A DNA stretch of 64,000 nt from Deltaproteobacteria bacterium (GTDB lineage Bacteria; SAR324; XYD2-FULL-50-16): positions 1 to 64,000 of the forward strand of contig JABHWU010000096.1 in assembly GCA_018657625.1 (NCBI GenBank). Direction: 5' to 3'. Made by a program: the position numbers and the translations under genes. The notes below the pieces were generated by a model, which saw only the letters and a list, made by a program, of their open reading frames with translations, was not told the DNA's origin and did not search any database. Shown here piece by piece: positions 2,590 through 23,850 of the stretch. Position 1 is the first letter of the stretch. The number at the start of each line of letters is the position of its first letter.

Positions 2590-5500
2590 TCACAATATCG
2601 ATTTTAATCGCATTAGCGACAATTCTAAGTTTTCACGATAAGCGGTAGCCTCCTCACAATTGGCTAGAACAAACTCAGCAGTTTGAATGACTAATTTTCT
2701 CCTTGGATTTTTAGGTAATGTCTCTGTTTCCAGATATTTATCCATCGTTTGAGCTCTTTCCCATCCATCACGATTGGTATAAACTTTCCAAATACCGGAA
2801 CTTTGAGCTAATTCGATTTTACTGGTCTTTGTTTCTTCTACCCAATAATCGATTGTTAGATTCATAATTTCTACCAGTAAGATGCGGATCGTTTTTAGTT
2901 TTTCCTTTTCCTCCCGTATTTCTTGAGAATCACTAATTAAGATATCTGCCACTTTTTGTCGTTCTGATACTTCCATATGATCATCTAATACAATTGAGGA
3001 TAAATCCCACTGAGAAGATTCTTTTAATTGCGCTTTAATTAGTTCCGCATCCAGTTTTTTCAATAATTCATTTTGTTCATATAATTCACTTAAACTGGCA
3101 TCTTCTAACTTATTGAAAGCTGAATAATCCGAAACGATTAGCATAATCATTTTTTCATCTTCAAAATCAATCAAAGTCCAGGCAACATGTTGGGTAAATG
3201 TGGTTCCGTCGGCATCAATAAAATCAAGATGATTACATTCATATTCATTTAAGGCCTCCCCTTTTACCATAATTCGTTCAAGCAATTCATCTACAAATGA
3301 CAATCCGCTTTTATGAAATAAGACTTCAAAAGAATGACCCAACATCAATTGGGACGCTTGTCCGATTAAATCACTAAAGCTTTTATTACAAAAGCTGATT
3401 TCTAAATTCTCATTAATTCCAATCAAAGCTTCTTCTATATGGTCCAGTATTTTAGAAAGCTTATATTGAATTCTGCGAAGTTCCAATTCTGTTTTTCTTC
3501 TGCTTTCCAACTCGTTTTTTAAATTCGTATTCTCTAAAAGCGTTTCATAAGCTTCTTTCAGCAATAATTGATTTTTGACACGAACTATTAGTTCTTCTCT
3601 TGTAAATGGTTTAGTAAGATAATCATTGGCACCTAATTTAAACGCCTGAACCATATCAGAGATATTGTTTTTAGCAGATAAAATTATAATCGGTAATTCA
3701 GATGGTGAAAAATCCACCCTAATTTTTTCACACAACTCAAAACCGCTTAACCCCGGCATCATGATGTCTAAAAGTATCAAGTCTGGAATTTTGCCTATTG
3801 AAAGCATATTTAATGCGTCACTGCCACATAAGGCTGTGGTTACATTATAATTCTCAACAGAGAGGTGATTCACTGCTACCTGTAGATTAATCATCTCATC
3901 ATCAACAACTAATATATTACTGGTGACGCAGGGCGGGTTGGTTTCAATCGTTTTTAATTGAGTAACATTTGAAACAAGCGGTTGACTTTTTAAGGCTGTA
4001 TTTATTTCTATGTCAGGAATTTCGACTTGATTCTCCAAATCAGACTCCTGAAGGAGAGGGATTTTTATTATAAACGTTGTCCCCTTACCTAATACCGATT
4101 GAACGCTAATTGTCCCATTGTGTAGCGATACTAATTGACTGGTAATGCTCAAACCCAGTCCGGTTCCCCCGAAATTAAATGATGATTCCGGATGAATCTG
4201 TTCATATGAGTGAAAAACTGAATTCCATTTATCTTCTGGAATCCCAATACCTGTATCTTTAATCTGGACTTGCAAAAAATTACCATCTTCTTCGGCATGT
4301 ATGGAAATACTACCTGCTTCGGTAAATTTAATGGCGTTATCAATCAGGTTGTAAAAAATCTGCTGCAATCGATTTTCATCAGCAAGTACTAGTGGTGTTT
4401 GATCTGAAAGATCATGCGTTAAAATCAATTTTTTTAATTTAATGGGGTCTCTAAAAAACAAGCAAACAATATCAACAACTGAATTAATAGCAACTGGTTT
4501 TAAATCGACTTTCAGCTCATTTTGTTTCAACTTTGCCAGATCGAGAATATCACCTACTAAAGTGGTTAGTCGTAAGCTACTGGATCTTATGAGATCGATG
4601 TTTTTAATCATTTTATCCGATAGTTTTCCAAAAGTTCCATTCATCAGTGATTCTGCTATCCCAATAATACCATTTAACGGGGATTGTAATTCATGGGAAG
4701 TGTTAATCAAAAAATCATCTTTTAATTTATCAATTTCTTGTATTTTTTGATTTTTTTCCTTTAATTCTGCCGATAAGGATTCAATTCTTTTATAAACATT
4801 GGAAAAATTAAAAGACATAAAAAAAGATAAACTGAGTGCAAATAAAAACAATCCTAAGGGTGTTAAATAAACAGAGTAAATCAATCGATTGGAGAACAGA
4901 ATATCATTAGCAATAGTAAGTGATAGAAACAGAAATCCAACCAATATGAACCAAACCTGGGGATTCCCTTTTATCATAGCTTTTAATAAATCTTTAGTCA
5001 TAACTATCAATATGAAAAAAAGCAATATTTGAAAAGGGATCACTAAATGACTGGAATAACTCATTGGTAAAATTAAAACTGCAATAGATAGGATAATTGA
5101 TACCCCGTATGCATATTTTTGAAAAATTGGAGTTTTATTCAAGCTAAGAATATGGTGCATAAATCGGATAAACAAGGGTAGCGCCAAAAAAAGTACCAGT
5201 ACTTCAATTTTATAGGTAGTTTGTCCTGGGAAGTCAGGGAATAGGTAAGTAAAAAATCTTCCACCAATTCCAGCAAATAAAATTCGAATTGAAATCAGAA
5301 AGCATAATAAACTAAAATAGAGCGTTGCAATATTTCTTCTTAAGATAAAGTAATAAATCAAATGGTAAAGTACCATGATTATAAGACTACCGAATAAGAA
5401 CAGATCAATTCCCCATTTTTTATTTTGAGATAAGGCAATTTGTGATTCTGTTCCCAGTAAAATTGGATTCCAGGCCCCTCCTTTTCTATGGCTATAGTTG

Positions 5501-6042: not shown

Positions 6043-6341
6043 GTAAATGGATAGGAAAATTTAGAAAAAAACCTCTGAGATTGAATCTTTATAAGCTATT
6101 CTTTGAGAATCTGCATAGTAAATTAATCAAAAACCTGTATCGAGCTGATAAAACCTGTTCTTTTTTAAATATAATACTAGCCAAAGTTTTTTTTTAGGAT
6201 AATACTAAGAGATATTTTCTAAATGTGGACAGATTTGATTGATTGCAACCACAGAAAAACAATGCTAAAACAAATTCCTTTTCTGCAATCCACTCAATCA
6301 ACTTTCCTATTATTTCAAAATCTTTTTGAAAGAGTATTTAA
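6043..6341. promoter_or_regulatory. Divergent intergenic region between the hybrid kinase and metK
   Basis: A consensus TATAAT lies at 6170-6175 facing metK, but the expected upstream hexamer is poor. ATAATACTA occurs twice in direct orientation, near 6171 and 6198. No SAM riboswitch signature was recognised. GAAAGAG ten or so bases before the metK ATG may serve as its ribosome-binding site. Confidence 0.35.
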
Positions 6342-7604
6342 ATGGGATACTATTTTACCTCTGAATCCGTGTCTGAAGGACATCCGGATAAAATTGCCGA
6401 TCAAATATCTGATGCTTTATTAGATGAATTTTTGCGTTATGATGCAAAATCTAAAGTTGCCTGCGAAACCTTTGTTACCACGGGTTTAGTCGTATTGGGT
6501 GGAGAAGTTAAAACTACCGGTTATGTGGATGTCCAAAAAATTGCACGTCGGGTGATTAATCGAATCGGATATACCAAGGCTGAATACATGTTTGACGGGA
6601 ACTCCTGTGGCGTTATTTCCTCTATCCATGAGCAGTCACCAGATATTAACCAGGGTGTAGTAAGAACTTCTGATGAAGACCAGGGAGCCGGAGATCAGGG
6701 AATGATGTTTGGATATGCCTGTAAAGAAACAGATGACTATATGCCGCTGGCGATTGACCTGTCACATATTATTTTACAGGAATTGACAGCTATTCGAAGA
6801 GAGAACAAAGAAATGGTTTATCTTAGACCTGATTCTAAGTCTCAGGTGACCATCGAGTATAATGACGATGATCAACCCCAAAAAATTCATACCATTGTTT
6901 TATCAACACAGCATGATGATTTTGATGAAGAAGTAAAAATGCTTCAGAAAATCAAAGATGACGTCAAGCAAATACTTTTACCCAGGGTCATTGCTCGTTT
7001 ACCTGAAAGAGTTCAAAAATTATTTAGTGATGAAATCATTTTACATGTTAATCCAACCGGGAAATTTGTTATCGGTGGTCCCCATGGAGATACCGGTCTA
7101 ACCGGTCGAAAAATCATCGTAGACACCTATGGTGGAAAAGGCGCACATGGTGGTGGTGCTTTTTCAGGAAAAGACTCATCAAAAGTTGATCGCTCCGCTG
7201 CTTATGCAACACGACATATTGCTAAAAATCTCGTTGCAGCCGGCGTTGCTGAAGAAGTTTTGGTTCAGGTAGCGTATGCCATTGGTGTTGCAAAACCAGT
7301 TGGTTTATATGTAAACACCTATAATTCATCTAATGTTCAGATTTCTGATGGTGAAATTGCTCAAAGAATTAGCACTATTTTTGATATGCGCCCCAGTGCA
7401 ATTGTGAAGCGTTTTGGCTTAACGAATCCGATCTTCGAAGAAACTGCTGCTTATGGCCATATGGGACGGACACCATACAAAAAAAAGGTGGAAGTTTATC
7501 CAAAAGGCAATGGTAATGGACAATCGGAATTCAAAGAAGTAGAATTTTTCAGTTGGGAAAAACTGGATTATGTTGAAAAATTGAAACAGGAATTTGGTTT
7601 GTAA
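6342..7604 (+). CDS. metK: S-adenosylmethionine synthetase
   Basis: Makes S-adenosylmethionine from methionine and ATP in the cytoplasm, supplying methyl groups for rlmL and cofactor for the radical SAM gene seen here. The 420-residue protein shows all three family blocks: [20 protein letters not shown] at the start, [12 protein letters not shown] near residue 120, and [20 protein letters not shown] near 270. Length is a little above the usual 380-400, mostly from a longer middle and tail. It stands alone, divergent from the kinase, and ends 2 bases before a perfect 34-base palindrome. Confidence 0.97.
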
Positions 7605-8730: not shown

Positions 8731-9327
8731 TTATAATAAATTCGAAAACCCAAGTTTACGTAATATTGAAGTCAGCAAATTTCCAGGAATGCCAATAATG
8801 GTATGTAAATCATTAATATTAACAGATTCAAATAATGCCGCACCTAATGATTCTATTTTATATGATCCTGCACAATTGAAAGGTTGGTCAATGTTAAGAT
8901 AATTGATAATTTCCTGGTTTTCTAAATATCGCATTTTTATCTTGGCGATTTCAACATCCTTAAAAACTTGATTTTGATGGATCACGCACACTGCACAAAT
9001 CAATTGATGTACCTTACCATTCATTTTTGATAATTGAGCGTATGCGCGTTCGAAATTACCAGGTTTCCCTAAAACTTCATCTTCCAGTTCAATTAGTTGA
9101 TCTGCAGCGATAATGATGTGATCAGGAAACAGTTTTTGAATAGAAAGTGCTTTTTCAACAGCGATATTTGATACAAATTCAACTAAATTTCCTCCTGAGA
9201 ACCTAGGTTCGTCATATCTATGATTAAAGCATTTGTGAGGTATATGCAGTTGATTTAAAATATCACTTCTCCATTTTGCTTCTGAAGCAAGTACTATTTT
9301 CTGTTTTGATAATGATTTCAATTTCAT
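8731..9327 (-). CDS. Maf-like nucleoside triphosphate pyrophosphatase
   Basis: A 198-residue cytoplasmic protein of the Maf/YhdE family, which hydrolyses non-canonical or modified nucleoside triphosphates. The start IVLASEAKWRSDILNQL corresponds to the Maf loop usually written SxSPRRxELL, but is diverged. The second half keeps IIAADQLIELEDEVLGKPG, including the catalytic aspartate region, and AYAQLSKMNGKVHQLICAV, the typical L..M.GK.H motif. The diverged first loop suggests a subfamily with a different base preference. No operon partner is seen. Confidence 0.82.
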   Translation of the reverse strand: MKLKSLSKQKIVLASEAKWRSDILNQLHIPHKCFNHRYDEPRFSGGNLVEFVSNIAVEKALSIQKLFPDHIIIAADQLIELEDEVLGKPGNFERAYAQLSKMNGKVHQLICAVCVIHQNQVFKDVEIAKIKMRYLENQEIINYLNIDQPFNCAGSYKIESLGAALFESVNINDLHTIIGIPGNLLTSILRKLGFSNLL

Positions 9328-9533: not shown

Positions 9534-9563
9534 AACGGAGAATCTTTATCAGAATTCTCCGTT
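9534..9563 (-). terminator. Hairpin after the HesB-like selenoprotein gene
   Basis: AACGGAGAAT and ATTCTCCGTT form a perfect 10-base stem with a 10-base loop, 6 bases past the stop codon. There is no clear T run after it, so it may be a Rho-independent terminator of the weak kind or a 3'-end stabiliser. Confidence 0.5.
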
Positions 9564-9569
9564 GACTAG

Positions 9570-9872
9570 TCAGCAGCAATTTGAAGGATATTGTGGATTT
9601 GCAGATACCGAAAATCCACCTCTAAACGCATCTTCAAGATAATCGATACTACAACGTTCCAGATAAGGCGCATCTCCTGTTTTAAACAATAGCTTTATTC
9701 CGGAAATTTCAACTTGTTCATCATTTTCATTTAACTCGTCCAGAGTTAATCCAAATCTTGGTCCCCCTCAACCAATTCCTTGGATTGAAATCCTGAGATA
9801 TTTATTTTCATTGTCATTTAACAATGTCGCAATTTTTTTTTGAGCAGAATCCGTAATAGTGATATCTGGCAT
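9570..9872 (-). CDS. HesB/IscA-like selenoprotein with an in-frame UGA (Sec35)
   Basis: Conventional gene finding misses this gene because codon 35 is UGA (9768-9770). Reading through gives 100 residues. ATG at 9872 follows AGGAGATT. The UGA lies in QGIGUGGPRFGLTLDE, where selenocysteine replaces the first conserved cysteine of the HesB fold; the frame continues with a second cysteine in YLERCSIDYL, then GFSVSANP and a terminal NCC. HesB-like proteins with Sec in this GxGUGGP context are an established bacterial selenoprotein family, related to IscA Fe-S proteins; their substrate is not settled. A SECIS-like hairpin follows the UGA and selA lies 13 kb away. The gene begins 23 bases after a radical SAM gene on the same strand, likely one operon. 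A nonsense pseudogene is the alternative, but the conserved downstream frame argues against it. Confidence 0.9.
9731..9749 (-). promoter_or_regulatory. Bacterial SECIS-like hairpin
   Basis: TTAACTC (9749-9743) and GAGTTAA (9737-9731) make a perfect 7-base stem around the loop TGGAC. The loop starts 25 bases past the UGA and has G as its second base. This fits the relaxed bacterial SECIS rule: loop 16-37 bases after UGA and a G within its first two bases. SelB would bind it to direct Sec insertion. Confidence 0.72.
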
Positions 9873-9895
9873 AATCTCCTTTTTCTTCTAAATTA

Positions 9896-10765
9896 TTATA
9901 AAGCCCGTAACCATTCCGGCTTTAGTTTAATATTCCCATCTATCGCTTGCTTCAAAACACCTAAAACCTGATTTTTATCTCGGGGTAGTCTGGCTCTGAT
10001 GGGTAGGTAATTAGAGGCATGGTTTGCTAAAAACAGCCCCTGGTGTAATTCTGTACAACGAATCATTTCATATAATTCCAATAACATTTGTTTTTGATCT
10101 GGTAAATTGAAATCACCATTTTTATGTTCATTGTAAAGCGGTGTTCCAGGTACCAACATCAAAGTCAAAGCGCCAATGTAATTTGGGTTCATTCGACTAA
10201 GTACTTCACCGGTTTTTCGGGCATGAATTAATGATTTTTCAACCCCTCCCAATCCCAATAAAACAGTAACAGAGAGTTTTATACCGGCTGTCTTAACTTT
10301 AAGTCCCTGCTCAATCAAATCGCTGGAAGTTGCTTTTTTATTTACCTGTAGTAATATCTCATCATCACCAGACTCAACCCCCATATAAATAATTCCTATT
10401 CCATTTTCCTTTAGGGCTATAAGTTCCTCTAATGATTTTCGTTTCAAACTTTTCGCATTGGCATAAATACCAACCCGATTGATCCAGGGAAGCTTCTCTT
10501 TGATCTGTTTTAGAATCCAAAGTAATTTTTCCTGCTTAATAATTAAGGCATCACCATCACAAAGAAACAGTCTTTTTTGCTCTTTGTAATAATTAGAAGC
10601 ATATTCAATATCCGTTTCAATGATAGGATTGTCTTTTATTTTAAATCGCTCCCCTTTGTAAGCGCCACAAAAAGTGCATTTATTATGGGAACATCCAACT
10701 GTTACCTGCAATAAAATACTATTCGCCTCGCTAGGAGGGCGTATGATATGACCTTCGTAATGCAT
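9896..10765 (-). CDS. Radical SAM protein with Cx4Cx2C cluster motif
   Basis: A 289-residue radical SAM enzyme. VTVGCSHNKCTFCGAYKG at residues 21-38 holds the [4Fe-4S] cysteines 25, 30 and 33, spaced Cx4Cx2C rather than the common Cx3Cx2C; this spacing is usual in the uncharacterised GCSHN-KCTFC group. FLCDGDALII supplies an acidic SAM-binding strand, and GVESGDDEIL and VLLGLGG match Elp3/HemN-type barrels. The C-terminus ends in a short helical part without a TRAM or second cluster motif. The reaction is unknown. It lies directly upstream of the HesB-like selenoprotein gene and probably shares its transcript, so the two may act together, for example in cluster supply or repair; that link is inference. 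Confidence 0.85.
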   Translation of the reverse strand: MHYEGHIIRPPSEANSILLQVTVGCSHNKCTFCGAYKGERFKIKDNPIIETDIEYASNYYKEQKRLFLCDGDALIIKQEKLLWILKQIKEKLPWINRVGIYANAKSLKRKSLEELIALKENGIGIIYMGVESGDDEILLQVNKKATSSDLIEQGLKVKTAGIKLSVTVLLGLGGVEKSLIHARKTGEVLSRMNPNYIGALTLMLVPGTPLYNEHKNGDFNLPDQKQMLLELYEMIRCTELHQGLFLANHASNYLPIRARLPRDKNQVLGVLKQAIDGNIKLKPEWLRAL

Positions 10766-20927: not shown

Positions 20928-22487
20928 ATGGATATCAAAAGATTCGGTTTAGCAAGTTTTTCAGGGGTATTATTAGCTTTAAGCTATCCTTCATATAATC
21001 TTTATTACTTGCAGTGGGTTGCTTTTATCCCATTACTGTTTTCTCTAAAAGATCAATCCATAAAATCAGCTTATATTCAAGGTGTTATCACTGGATTCTG
21101 GGGGATCTGTATTGGTTTTTACTGGATAGCCAATTGGTCAACGGTTGTGATGGAAATTGCTTTCCCTCTCAATTATGGGATTACAATCGCACACTCATTA
21201 GCAGTTGCTCAGATATTTGGGATTATATTTAGTTTATTTCAGTGGGTTAGGAAGCATTTTCCTGACTATAATATTTTGACACTCCCCTTAATTTTTGTAG
21301 CCATATTTACATCATTCCCAACTATCTTTAAGTTTTCTCTGGGAGATGCTCAGTCATACTTTTTACCGGCTATTCAACTTATTGAATTTACAGGTGTATA
21401 TGGATTAGACTTTATTATCATTTTGGTAAATATTGTATTGTATTCCTACTTTAACGGTATGAAAAGTCTTTTGAAAAAGATTCAAATTGTTACAGCTATT
21501 TTAATTATTTTCATTTGGTTTTTTGGTGGTTGGATGAAATTAAATACCTGGGACCAAAAAATAAAAAATTGGGATCTGGTTAAAGTTGGTATAATTCAAA
21601 CCAATTCAGCAGCTTCGATGTCGAAGTCTAAGCCTTCTCCACCCTATTCACGATCTTATCCACTGGAAATGGCACTTAGTGAAGAACTCGCCAGTCAAAA
21701 TCCGGTTGCTATCATCTGGCCGGAAGGAAATTTTTTCGGAATCACGTTCTGGTCAAGCATAAAAACAGCCTTTCTTAAACATGTTTCCAAATTAAAGATT
21801 CCTTTGATACTACACGATATCACCATTTCTCAACCAAATGGTCAGAGAAAGACTTATAATAGTTCTGTTTTTTTCCCAGGTAATGGTGAAGGAATACATT
21901 TCTATCATAAAATGATACGTGTTCCGTTTGGTGAATATGTCCCTTTTATTGATGACTTTTGGCTTTTAAAAAAACTATTGGGAAGTTTTATTACGAACCT
22001 CAATAAAGGTGAGTCACATAAAATATTTGATGTGATAAATATTCGTTTTGTCCCAAAAATATGTTACGAATCTTTGTTTCCTTCATTTGTCGCTGAATCA
22101 ATCAATCAGGACGGTCAAGGAAAAGTATTACTGGTGCAATCTCAGGATGGCTGGTACGGGGAAAGCAGCGCTGCAGAGCAGCACCTGGCTTCATCTGCCT
22201 TAAGGGCAGTTGAAAATCGTGTCCCATTAATTCATGTTATTAATAATGGTTCTTCCGGCATTATCAGTCCAAATGGTAGATATGAAGCTAAATTAAAGCC
22301 ATTCCGTCAAGTCAGCAAGGTTATCTCATTCCACTTTGACTCAAATGCCGGAGGAAGTTTCTTTTCAGCCTATCCTTATTTTTTCTTAAACAGTGTTCGC
22401 ATGTTGTTTCTAATGTTAATATTCTCAACTTATTGGATGCAATATAAAAGCAGATCTATTGAAAAATCATATGAATCCAACACATAA
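20928..22487 (+). CDS. lnt: Apolipoprotein N-acyltransferase
   Basis: Adds the third acyl chain to the N-terminus of lipoproteins in the inner membrane, needed for export to the outer membrane. The 519-residue protein has about six N-terminal helices followed by a nitrilase-like domain (from about residue 215) and a last helix. The catalytic triad is visible: Glu in AIIWPEGNFF near 265, Lys in YHKMIRVPFGEYVPF near 327, and Cys in PKICYESLFP near 378, close to the E. coli spacing. The ATG at 20928 follows the hydrolase gene by 70 bases. selA overlaps its 3' end. Substrate lipoproteins in this window include the M48 protease. Confidence 0.95.
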   Translation: MDIKRFGLASFSGVLLALSYPSYNLYYLQWVAFIPLLFSLKDQSIKSAYIQGVITGFWGICIGFYWIANWSTVVMEIAFPLNYGITIAHSLAVAQIFGIIFSLFQWVRKHFPDYNILTLPLIFVAIFTSFPTIFKFSLGDAQSYFLPAIQLIEFTGVYGLDFIIILVNIVLYSYFNGMKSLLKKIQIVTAILIIFIWFFGGWMKLNTWDQKIKNWDLVKVGIIQTNSAASMSKSKPSPPYSRSYPLEMALSEELASQNPVAIIWPEGNFFGITFWSSIKTAFLKHVSKLKIPLILHDITISQPNGQRKTYNSSVFFPGNGEGIHFYHKMIRVPFGEYVPFIDDFWLLKKLLGSFITNLNKGESHKIFDVINIRFVPKICYESLFPSFVAESINQDGQGKVLLVQSQDGWYGESSAAEQHLASSALRAVENRVPLIHVINNGSSGIISPNGRYEAKLKPFRQVSKVISFHFDSNAGGSFFSAYPYFFLNSVRMLFLMLIFSTYWMQYKSRSIEKSYESNT

Positions 22488-23850
22488 CCTGTATTCTAAA
22501 TTGCCATCAATCAAACAAATTGATGAATATATGGCACAAAAATCTTTGCCTTTCGGTAAGGAGATTCGGAACCAGGTCAATCAAGTTCTTAAAAATATCC
22601 GCCAGGATAAAGAATATTTGGAGTCTGAGAACCTGACACGACCGGATATATTATACAGGATTGAATCAGAATTAAAAACCCGATCAAATTTGATGATATC
22701 TGTCATTAATGGCACCGGAGCAATTATCCATACCAATTTGGGACGATCGGTTTTATCGGAAGCAATTTTTGAAGAAATTAAAACGCTGGCTTCGACTTAT
22801 ACTAACCTGGAATTTTCTTTGGAAACCGGAAAAAGAGGGACCCGACTAAATAGTGTTGGTGATTTGTTAAAAACATTAACAGTTGCTGAAGAAGCCGTCG
22901 TTGTCAATAATAACGCTGCCGCAGTTTTATTAACCCTGACGGCATTAGCTCAATCAAAAGAGGTGATAATATCAAGGGGCGAACTCGTTGAAATCGGGGG
23001 CTCTTTTCGAATACCGGAAGTCATTGCAGTTTCAGGTGCAGTATTAAAGGAAGTTGGGTCTACCAATCGCACCCGCCTGGATGATTACCATAAAGCGATT
23101 ACTGATAATACAGCGGTATTACTTAAAGCACATACCTCCAATTACGAGATTACCGGATTTACCGAATCAGTTAAAACCAGTCAATTAGCAGGGTTAAAGG
23201 CAAAAACCAACACCATTTTAGTTGAAGACATCGGTAGCGGGGCGCTTGAGCTTTTTGAACATAGTCAGCTAAATTCAGATCCACTGGTGCCACTGGTGCT
23301 GAAAGATGGTGCCGATATTGTTACGATTAGTGGAGATAAGCTTATCGGTGGCCCACAATGCGGAATTATTTTAGGCAAGAAACATTTGCTGGATCAAATA
23401 AAAGAACATCCCCTTTACCGGGCATTAAGATGTGATAAAATAACCATGCTCTTACTCGAAAAAACATTGATCGCCTATAGCAGAGGACAGCATCGATCAC
23501 AAATTCCAACCCAGCGGATGCTTAATGAATCAGATTATCAGGTAAAAGTTCGAGCAAAAGAAATTCTTGATAAATTACCGCAACAGGATTGTTACCGCTT
23601 AGTCCCCTGTAACTCAACACCTGGTGGGGGATCTTTACCTGGGAAAAAAATTAAAAGCTGGGGAATAGAACTGCATTCGAATCATCATTCAGAAGGTAAA
23701 ATCATGGATTTACTGAGATCGCAGTCTCCCCCAGTTATTGGAAGAATTCAAAATAATAAGGTTGTTTTGGATTGCAGAACAATTCTGCCTCAGCAAATGA
23801 ATCAGGTTTCGGAGATTTTAAAGAAAATAGAACTGGAATTACTCGGTTAA
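22471..23850 (+). CDS. selA: L-seryl-tRNA(Sec) selenium transferase (selenocysteine synthase)
   Basis: Converts seryl-tRNA(Sec) to selenocysteinyl-tRNA(Sec) using selenophosphate and PLP. The 459-residue protein shows INGTGAIIHTNLGRS near residue 75, NNNAAAVLLTL, ISRGELVEIGGSFRIPEV, VEDIGSGAL and the PLP lysine near 289 in SGDKLIGGPQCGII. LYRALRCDKITMLLLE is also typical. I use the ATG at 22471, which overlaps lnt by 17 bases; a TTG at 22459 is an alternative. Its presence supports the UGA-containing HesB-like gene. selB and the selC tRNA are not found in the window, an unusual separation because selB often follows selA. Confidence 0.96.
   Translation: MNPTHNLYSKLPSIKQIDEYMAQKSLPFGKEIRNQVNQVLKNIRQDKEYLESENLTRPDILYRIESELKTRSNLMISVINGTGAIIHTNLGRSVLSEAIFEEIKTLASTYTNLEFSLETGKRGTRLNSVGDLLKTLTVAEEAVVVNNNAAAVLLTLTALAQSKEVIISRGELVEIGGSFRIPEVIAVSGAVLKEVGSTNRTRLDDYHKAITDNTAVLLKAHTSNYEITGFTESVKTSQLAGLKAKTNTILVEDIGSGALELFEHSQLNSDPLVPLVLKDGADIVTISGDKLIGGPQCGIILGKKHLLDQIKEHPLYRALRCDKITMLLLEKTLIAYSRGQHRSQIPTQRMLNESDYQVKVRAKEILDKLPQQDCYRLVPCNSTPGGGSLPGKKIKSWGIELHSNHHSEGKIMDLLRSQSPPVIGRIQNNKVVLDCRTILPQQMNQVSEILKKIELELLG

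Follow-up and report, generated by a model that had tools for sequence, protein, structure and literature searches.

We identified a gene for a HesB-like protein of 100 residues, very probably a genuine selenoprotein, in the 64,000-nucleotide stretch of SAR324 DNA analysed here (the window). Comparison with homologous genes indicates that selenocysteine (Sec) is inserted at its single in-frame UGA (9768-9770), which is codon 35 and corresponds to the first cluster-ligand Cys of IscA/HesB. The gene runs on the minus strand from ATG 9872-9870 through UGA 9770-9768 to a terminal TGA at 9572-9570, and its frame (9872-9570) reads MPDITITDSAQKKIATLLNDNENKYLRISIQGIG-U-GGPRFGLTLDELNEND...NPQYPSNCC-stop. 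The UxGP motif is present as G-U-G-G-P at codons 34-38. Standard gene calls are empty between 9327 and 9896, from a Maf-like gene (8731-9327) to a radical SAM gene (9896-10765). Both this gap and the UGA-interrupted frame, with GIGUGGPRFGLTLDE around the Sec position, had been pointed out in the initial annotation, and translation with TGA as U gives the same coordinates and sequence. The features are collected in Table 1.

Table 1. Positions of the predicted selenoprotein gene, its signals and related features; entries without a contig or locus name refer to the window
Feature	Position	Strand	Basis
HesB-like gene, 100 aa, predicted selenoprotein (Sec35, C-terminal Cys99-Cys100, terminal UGA as predicted stop)	9570..9872	-	TGA=U translation, family scores, homologues
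Predicted Sec UGA codon, at first ligand Cys of IscA/HesB	9768..9770	-	alignments and homologue table
Shine-Dalgarno-like AAGGAG, upstream of ATG	9876..9881	-	read directly from sequence
Bacterial SECIS hairpin: stem 9749-9743 / 9737-9731, loop UGGAC 9742-9738	9731..9749	-	fold, covariation, covariance model, bSECIS criteria
Strong hairpin just 3' of the HesB-like gene, without U tract	9534..9563	-	fold -14.3 kcal/mol, z=-3.1
Radical SAM protein gene, 23 nt upstream of the HesB-like gene	9896..10765	-	PF04055, neighbour tests
selA, L-seryl-tRNA(Sec) selenium transferase	22459..23850	+	TIGR00474 511.7 bits, cut-off 267.9
tRNA-Sec (selC)	C84:12399-12493		64.0 bits
selB	C14:64371-66263		372.8 bits
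selD, own in-frame UGA	C101:49176-50099		368.3 bits
UxGS/UTGI class loci	L032:3748-4041 (G000:C102:101747+), L034, L035, L037, L038, L039, L010		

Homologues were scanned with the pattern GPRxG[LM][ATV]LDE. The Sec position lies outside this pattern, therefore TGA was not selected for. In the 91 non-redundant signature homologues, which come from SAR324, Desulfobacterota-type bacteria, Spirochaetes, Firmicutes and others, the codon at position 35 is TGA in 90 and Cys in only one (Fundidesulfovibrio, L143); L076 and L002 (G008 copy) are one gene. A sense codon other than Cys/Sec at this position, which the initial annotation had named as evidence against its reading, does not occur in this set. 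The scan of named genomes found the gene in SAR324 cluster bacteria, Geobacter-type bacteria, Desulfatitalea, Myxococcota, Spirochaetes and Firmicutes, as well as in a Neomarinimicrobiota bin, a Gemmatimonadetes bin and others. A read-through search of related genomes detected UGA-containing HesB relatives within this genome's own family and a single one in another family.

Downstream of the UGA lies the hairpin UUAACUC-UGGAC-GAGUUAA (9749-9731), with a perfect 7-bp stem and a 5-nt loop. The distance from the UGA is 18 nt to the stem and 25 nt to the loop, and the RNA fold of 56 nt at the hairpin has an energy of -12.2 kcal/mol (z=-2.6). Bacterial SECIS (bSECIS) criteria include a loop of 3-9 nt, an upper stem of 4-16 bp, a G among the first two loop nucleotides, a spacing of 16-37 nt to the UGA and an MFE at or below -7.5 kcal/mol (PMC13188914). 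The hairpin agrees with all four criteria, as its loop (5 nt, G at position 2), stem, distance and folding energy are within these limits, and the 7-base stem, TGGAC loop and 18-base spacing reported earlier all hold. Folding energy alone was dropped as proof of a SECIS. A synonymous-recoding control gave only a modest shift (mean z -1.23 vs -0.29 and -0.45 in control segments), therefore the case for the SECIS rests on covariation.

The hairpin is conserved by compensatory change, beyond what the protein sequence alone explains. Across an alignment of 90 genes, base pairing is intact at 26-36 in 90, at 25-37 in 89 and at 24-38 in 88, compared with about 75, 75 and 69 in shuffles. The covariation set contains 78 distinct sequences, with the window sequence excluded, and its score is 0.418 vs 0.236 shuffled; no shuffle reaches 0.418 (0 of 500), a figure which is not a strict probability because the sequences are related. 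Cells changed on both sides number 64 vs 21 in shuffles, and 90.5% of cells are paired vs at most 46% in slid controls, where moving the partner by a single column removes half or more of the paired cells. The codon that precedes the loop is also coupled with the Glu codon after it: GTT, in the context GTT-CTG-GAY, goes with GAA in 19 of 20 genes, and GCT, ACT or TCT goes with GAG in 70 of 70. In this coupling, a base that alters the amino acid varies together with a silent one, which protein conservation cannot explain. The Leu codon of the region is CTG in 89 of 90 genes, and elsewhere in these genes CTG accounts for 192 of 530 Leu codons. In the Cys homologue (L143), the SECIS stem contains two mismatches.

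A covariance model built from 78 other genes recovers the window site with 54.3 bits (E=2.7e-14), and the next match in the window has E=0.33; this is the kind of check that had been proposed for the hairpin. In the whole genome, the top four matches of the same model are the four UGA-containing HesB paralogues, followed only by weak matches. The two best of the weak ones are regarded as chance, namely C13:7494, an ABC-ATPase Walker B stretch (ILDEPTDGLDP), and C59:6990, a histidine kinase G-box. No SECIS model was matched in Rfam scans of the window, either at gathering or at permissive thresholds, and a family-specific, strongly covarying model from 78 sequences can find such genes automatically.

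This SAR324 genome contains the full Sec-decoding set of selA, selB, selC and selD. The selA gene had been noticed before and is confirmed, and selB and tRNA-Sec, whose absence from the genome would have spoken against the selenoprotein, are both found, with selD in addition. Selenophosphate synthetase (SelD) is probably itself a selenoprotein, because its gene has an in-frame TGA. In the proposed mechanism, SelB carrying Sec-tRNA(Sec) would bind the hairpin at 9749-9731, and the ribosome would insert selenocysteine at UGA 9768-9770. The product would be a 100-residue protein of the A-type-carrier fold with Sec35 and a C-terminal Cys pair, and translation would end at the terminal UGA (9570-9572), which has no conserved SECIS.

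The internal UGA might also be a Cys codon (TGT or TGC) mutated in a pseudogene or misread as TGA, as one base change is enough and the assembly is at draft level, in 142 contigs. However, TGA stands at this codon in almost every homologue, all four paralogues of this genome included, no other stop interrupts the frame, and compensatory changes preserve the hairpin; the homologue sequences already refute this reading, whose probability is close to nil. Equally negligible is a genome-wide reassignment of UGA (codes 4 or 25) to Trp or Gly, which would account for one in-frame UGA being read through. UGA ends 6 of 39 ORFs in the window, therefore it is not globally reassigned; moreover, a specific tRNA-Sec and SelA, SelB and SelD are present, and in the general IscA/HesB family the position is Cys, not Trp or Gly. 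A different possibility concerns the terminal UGA, which could be a second Sec codon (...NCCULVNGEF..) of a double selenoprotein with the hairpin at 9563-9534 as its SECIS. This UGA directly follows the terminal Cys, HMM alignments place it opposite the last Cys of CxC, and the apical loop of the strong hairpin is about 19 nt beyond it. But the stop codon right beyond the terminal Cys region of 80 UxGP homologues is TGA (28), TAA (28) or TAG (24), possible C-terminal extensions are not conserved among them, downstream folding is alike in UGA-ending and TAA/TAG-ending genes (p=0.41), and the SECIS covariance model has no match at the 3' hairpin. A second Sec is thus very improbable, being ruled out by stop-codon usage of homologues and downstream folding. 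Judged from these comparisons, the terminal UGA is an ordinary stop, and the hairpin beyond it is most likely a 3' end or termination structure.

With C in place of U, the protein scores 67.6 bits for TIGR00049 (cut-off 58.8), and PF01521 (IscA/HesB) spans its full length with 49.1 bits (cut-off 26.3). The equivalog cut-offs of ErpA, IscA and SufA are not reached. The protein resembles IscA, ErpA and SufA in the full-length PF01521 domain and in Cys/Sec at the first ligand position, but differs from them in having Sec for Cys, no C-terminal CxC and no Isc/Suf genes in the recurrent neighbourhood. Its assignment to the HesB-like selenoprotein family, known since the mid-2000s, is well supported. 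As in TIGR01911 (HesB_rel_seleno) and NF038090 (IscA_HesB_Se), there is a UxGP motif, one Sec at the first HesB Cys, a SECIS immediately downstream and a bacterial distribution including deltaproteobacteria and Firmicutes (PMC1794560, PMC5029168, PMC13188914). In contrast to these models' families, it has a C-terminal CC and stays below both cut-offs (NF038090, 60 vs 85; TIGR01911, 48.1 vs 66.35). The Geobacter homologue is also below them (68.7 and 40.4), hence these cut-offs are narrower than the family of the literature.

HesB-like selenoproteins were catalogued in 2005-2006 (PMC1088965, PMC1794560), and a survey in 2016, whose tables include SAR324 genomes, counted 90 of them in 86 organisms (PMC5029168). 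A 2026 listing equates them with TIGR01911 and the motif UxGP (PMC13188914), so the label of a known family given in the initial annotation is right. No paper on SAR324 HesB-like selenoproteins was found in our literature search. The protein MMJJ_08070 of M. maripaludis is likewise a HesB-like selenoprotein, but it is encoded by an archaeal gene. In M. maripaludis, the SECIS and the Sec-synthesis machinery are archaeal. Mutagenesis and 75Se labelling served to identify MMJJ_08070, whose function was described as not clear (PMC11097638).

Three more UGA-containing HesB paralogues are found in the same genome (C102:82699, C102:101747 and C116:32449), two of which share contig C102. Four paralogues in one genome distinguish it from the HesB-like selenoproteins of the 2016 survey (90 in 86 organisms; PMC5029168) and go beyond the literature we found. 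Among them, L031:3700-3936 (C102:82.7k) and L033 at about 3900-4183 (C116:32.4k) are further predicted UxGP selenoprotein genes, both missed by standard gene calling; the latter closely follows a thioredoxin gene of the same orientation. The reading proposed here restores a protein dropped by standard annotation, plus three paralogues hidden likewise, in a poorly cultured marine group.

Another class of paralogues contains UKGS or UTGI in place of UGGP and a PWFxGF tail, usually without a terminal Cys, and has the same SECIS. Within one SAR324 family, 6 of the 10 genomes that were searched have this UxGS/UTGI class, which is also new relative to the literature we found; a search of 42 further genomes from the phylum gave no member. 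A response-regulator/histidine-kinase gene follows four of the seven loci. We would only tentatively suggest that HesB-like selenoproteins have expanded in this SAR324 family into two functional classes, an ancestral UxGP class with Sec and a terminal Cys, and a UxGS/UTGI class in which Sec acts without a Cys partner and might serve, for instance, as the input of a selenium, redox or metal sensor; such a division is rather doubtful.

In the UxGP proteins, a Cys is found within the last three residues in 79 of 80, IscA-type CxC is absent in 78 of 80, and no further Cys lies between Sec and the tail in 75 of 80. The window protein ends with NCC-stop and does not have the three-Cys ligand set of a carrier (the Cys35 equivalent plus CxC). 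Sec35 and one C-terminal Cys kept without the CxC of IscA is a combination beyond the literature we found, and its persistence across 80 members, with the IscA cluster motif lost, points towards thiol/selenol chemistry. On the same strand, the commonest Pfam matches of neighbours, in small raw counts, are of the thioredoxin fold (PF00085 in 6 proteins and AhpC-TSA in 5, with some overlap between the two); ArsR regulators come next, and iron superoxide dismutase occurs twice. In the tally for the opposite strand, of the same kind, pyridine-nucleotide-disulphide oxidoreductases (3) lead and rubrerythrin appears twice. Thioredoxin reductase-like genes are within two genes of the HesB-like gene at seven loci; overall, a minority of loci have neighbours from the thioredoxin system. 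Isc/Suf families are absent from the 25 listed in the tally of either strand.

Within the IscA fold, the Sec35 selenol may cooperate with the C-terminal thiol of Cys99 in one of two ways: the pair would be a thiol/selenol redox site maintained by the thioredoxin system, or it would bind a metal, an Fe-S cluster or a persulfide. We infer a redox or thiol-linked role of Sec35 and the C-terminal Cys, which we favour over a classical Fe-S carrier and to which we give an even chance. A classical A-type carrier of the IscA, ErpA or SufA kind, with Sec just standing in for the Cys ligand, is less probable and on balance unlikely. It would fit the shared fold family (matches to TIGR00049 and to ErpA/IscA models), the PDB relatives 2apn, 1nwb, 1r94 and 1s98, and Sec at the first ligand position; however, the CxC ligand pair is missing in nearly all UxGP members, the recurrent neighbours do not include Isc/Suf genes, and an M. 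maripaludis mutant with a disrupted HesB-like gene was unimpaired in nitrogen fixation (unpublished observation quoted in PMC11097638). The radical SAM gene has the same orientation and lies only 23 nt away; it is probably co-transcribed with the HesB-like gene in this genome, and the two could form a dedicated system, for example for repair or delivery of the enzyme's cluster. But no homologue of this radical SAM gene is found near any other UGA-HesB locus (flanks of 1.5-5 kb), and four orthologues in related genomes, 67-68% identical, adjoin unrelated genes with no adjacent HesB. A two-gene system is therefore highly improbable. Conserved adjacency was rejected by these neighbour tests: the pairing is local, and the partnership of interest to the initial annotation is not supported. 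In three of the four orthologue genomes, a UxGS HesB gene is present on the same contig, 12-15 kb away.

At four loci of Tissierellales-type Firmicutes (L099, L118, L127 and L155), a thioredoxin-like lipoprotein gene lies upstream of the HesB-like selenoprotein gene on the same strand, joined in three of the four by a CcdA-like membrane protein gene, also upstream and on the same strand, in what is apparently a redox operon. An ArsR-family regulator gene is located directly upstream (28-70 bp) at L107, L116, L123 and L135, which belong to several Firmicutes and a Spirochaete.

Two riboswitches were also detected in the window. A SAM-II riboswitch (6219-6278; 67.6 bits) is located upstream of the gene at 6342-7604, which is metK-like by sequence. 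On the minus strand, a TPP riboswitch (1234-1336; 61.8 bits) is upstream of the gene at 135-1181, whose product resembles a periplasmic thiamine-binding protein.
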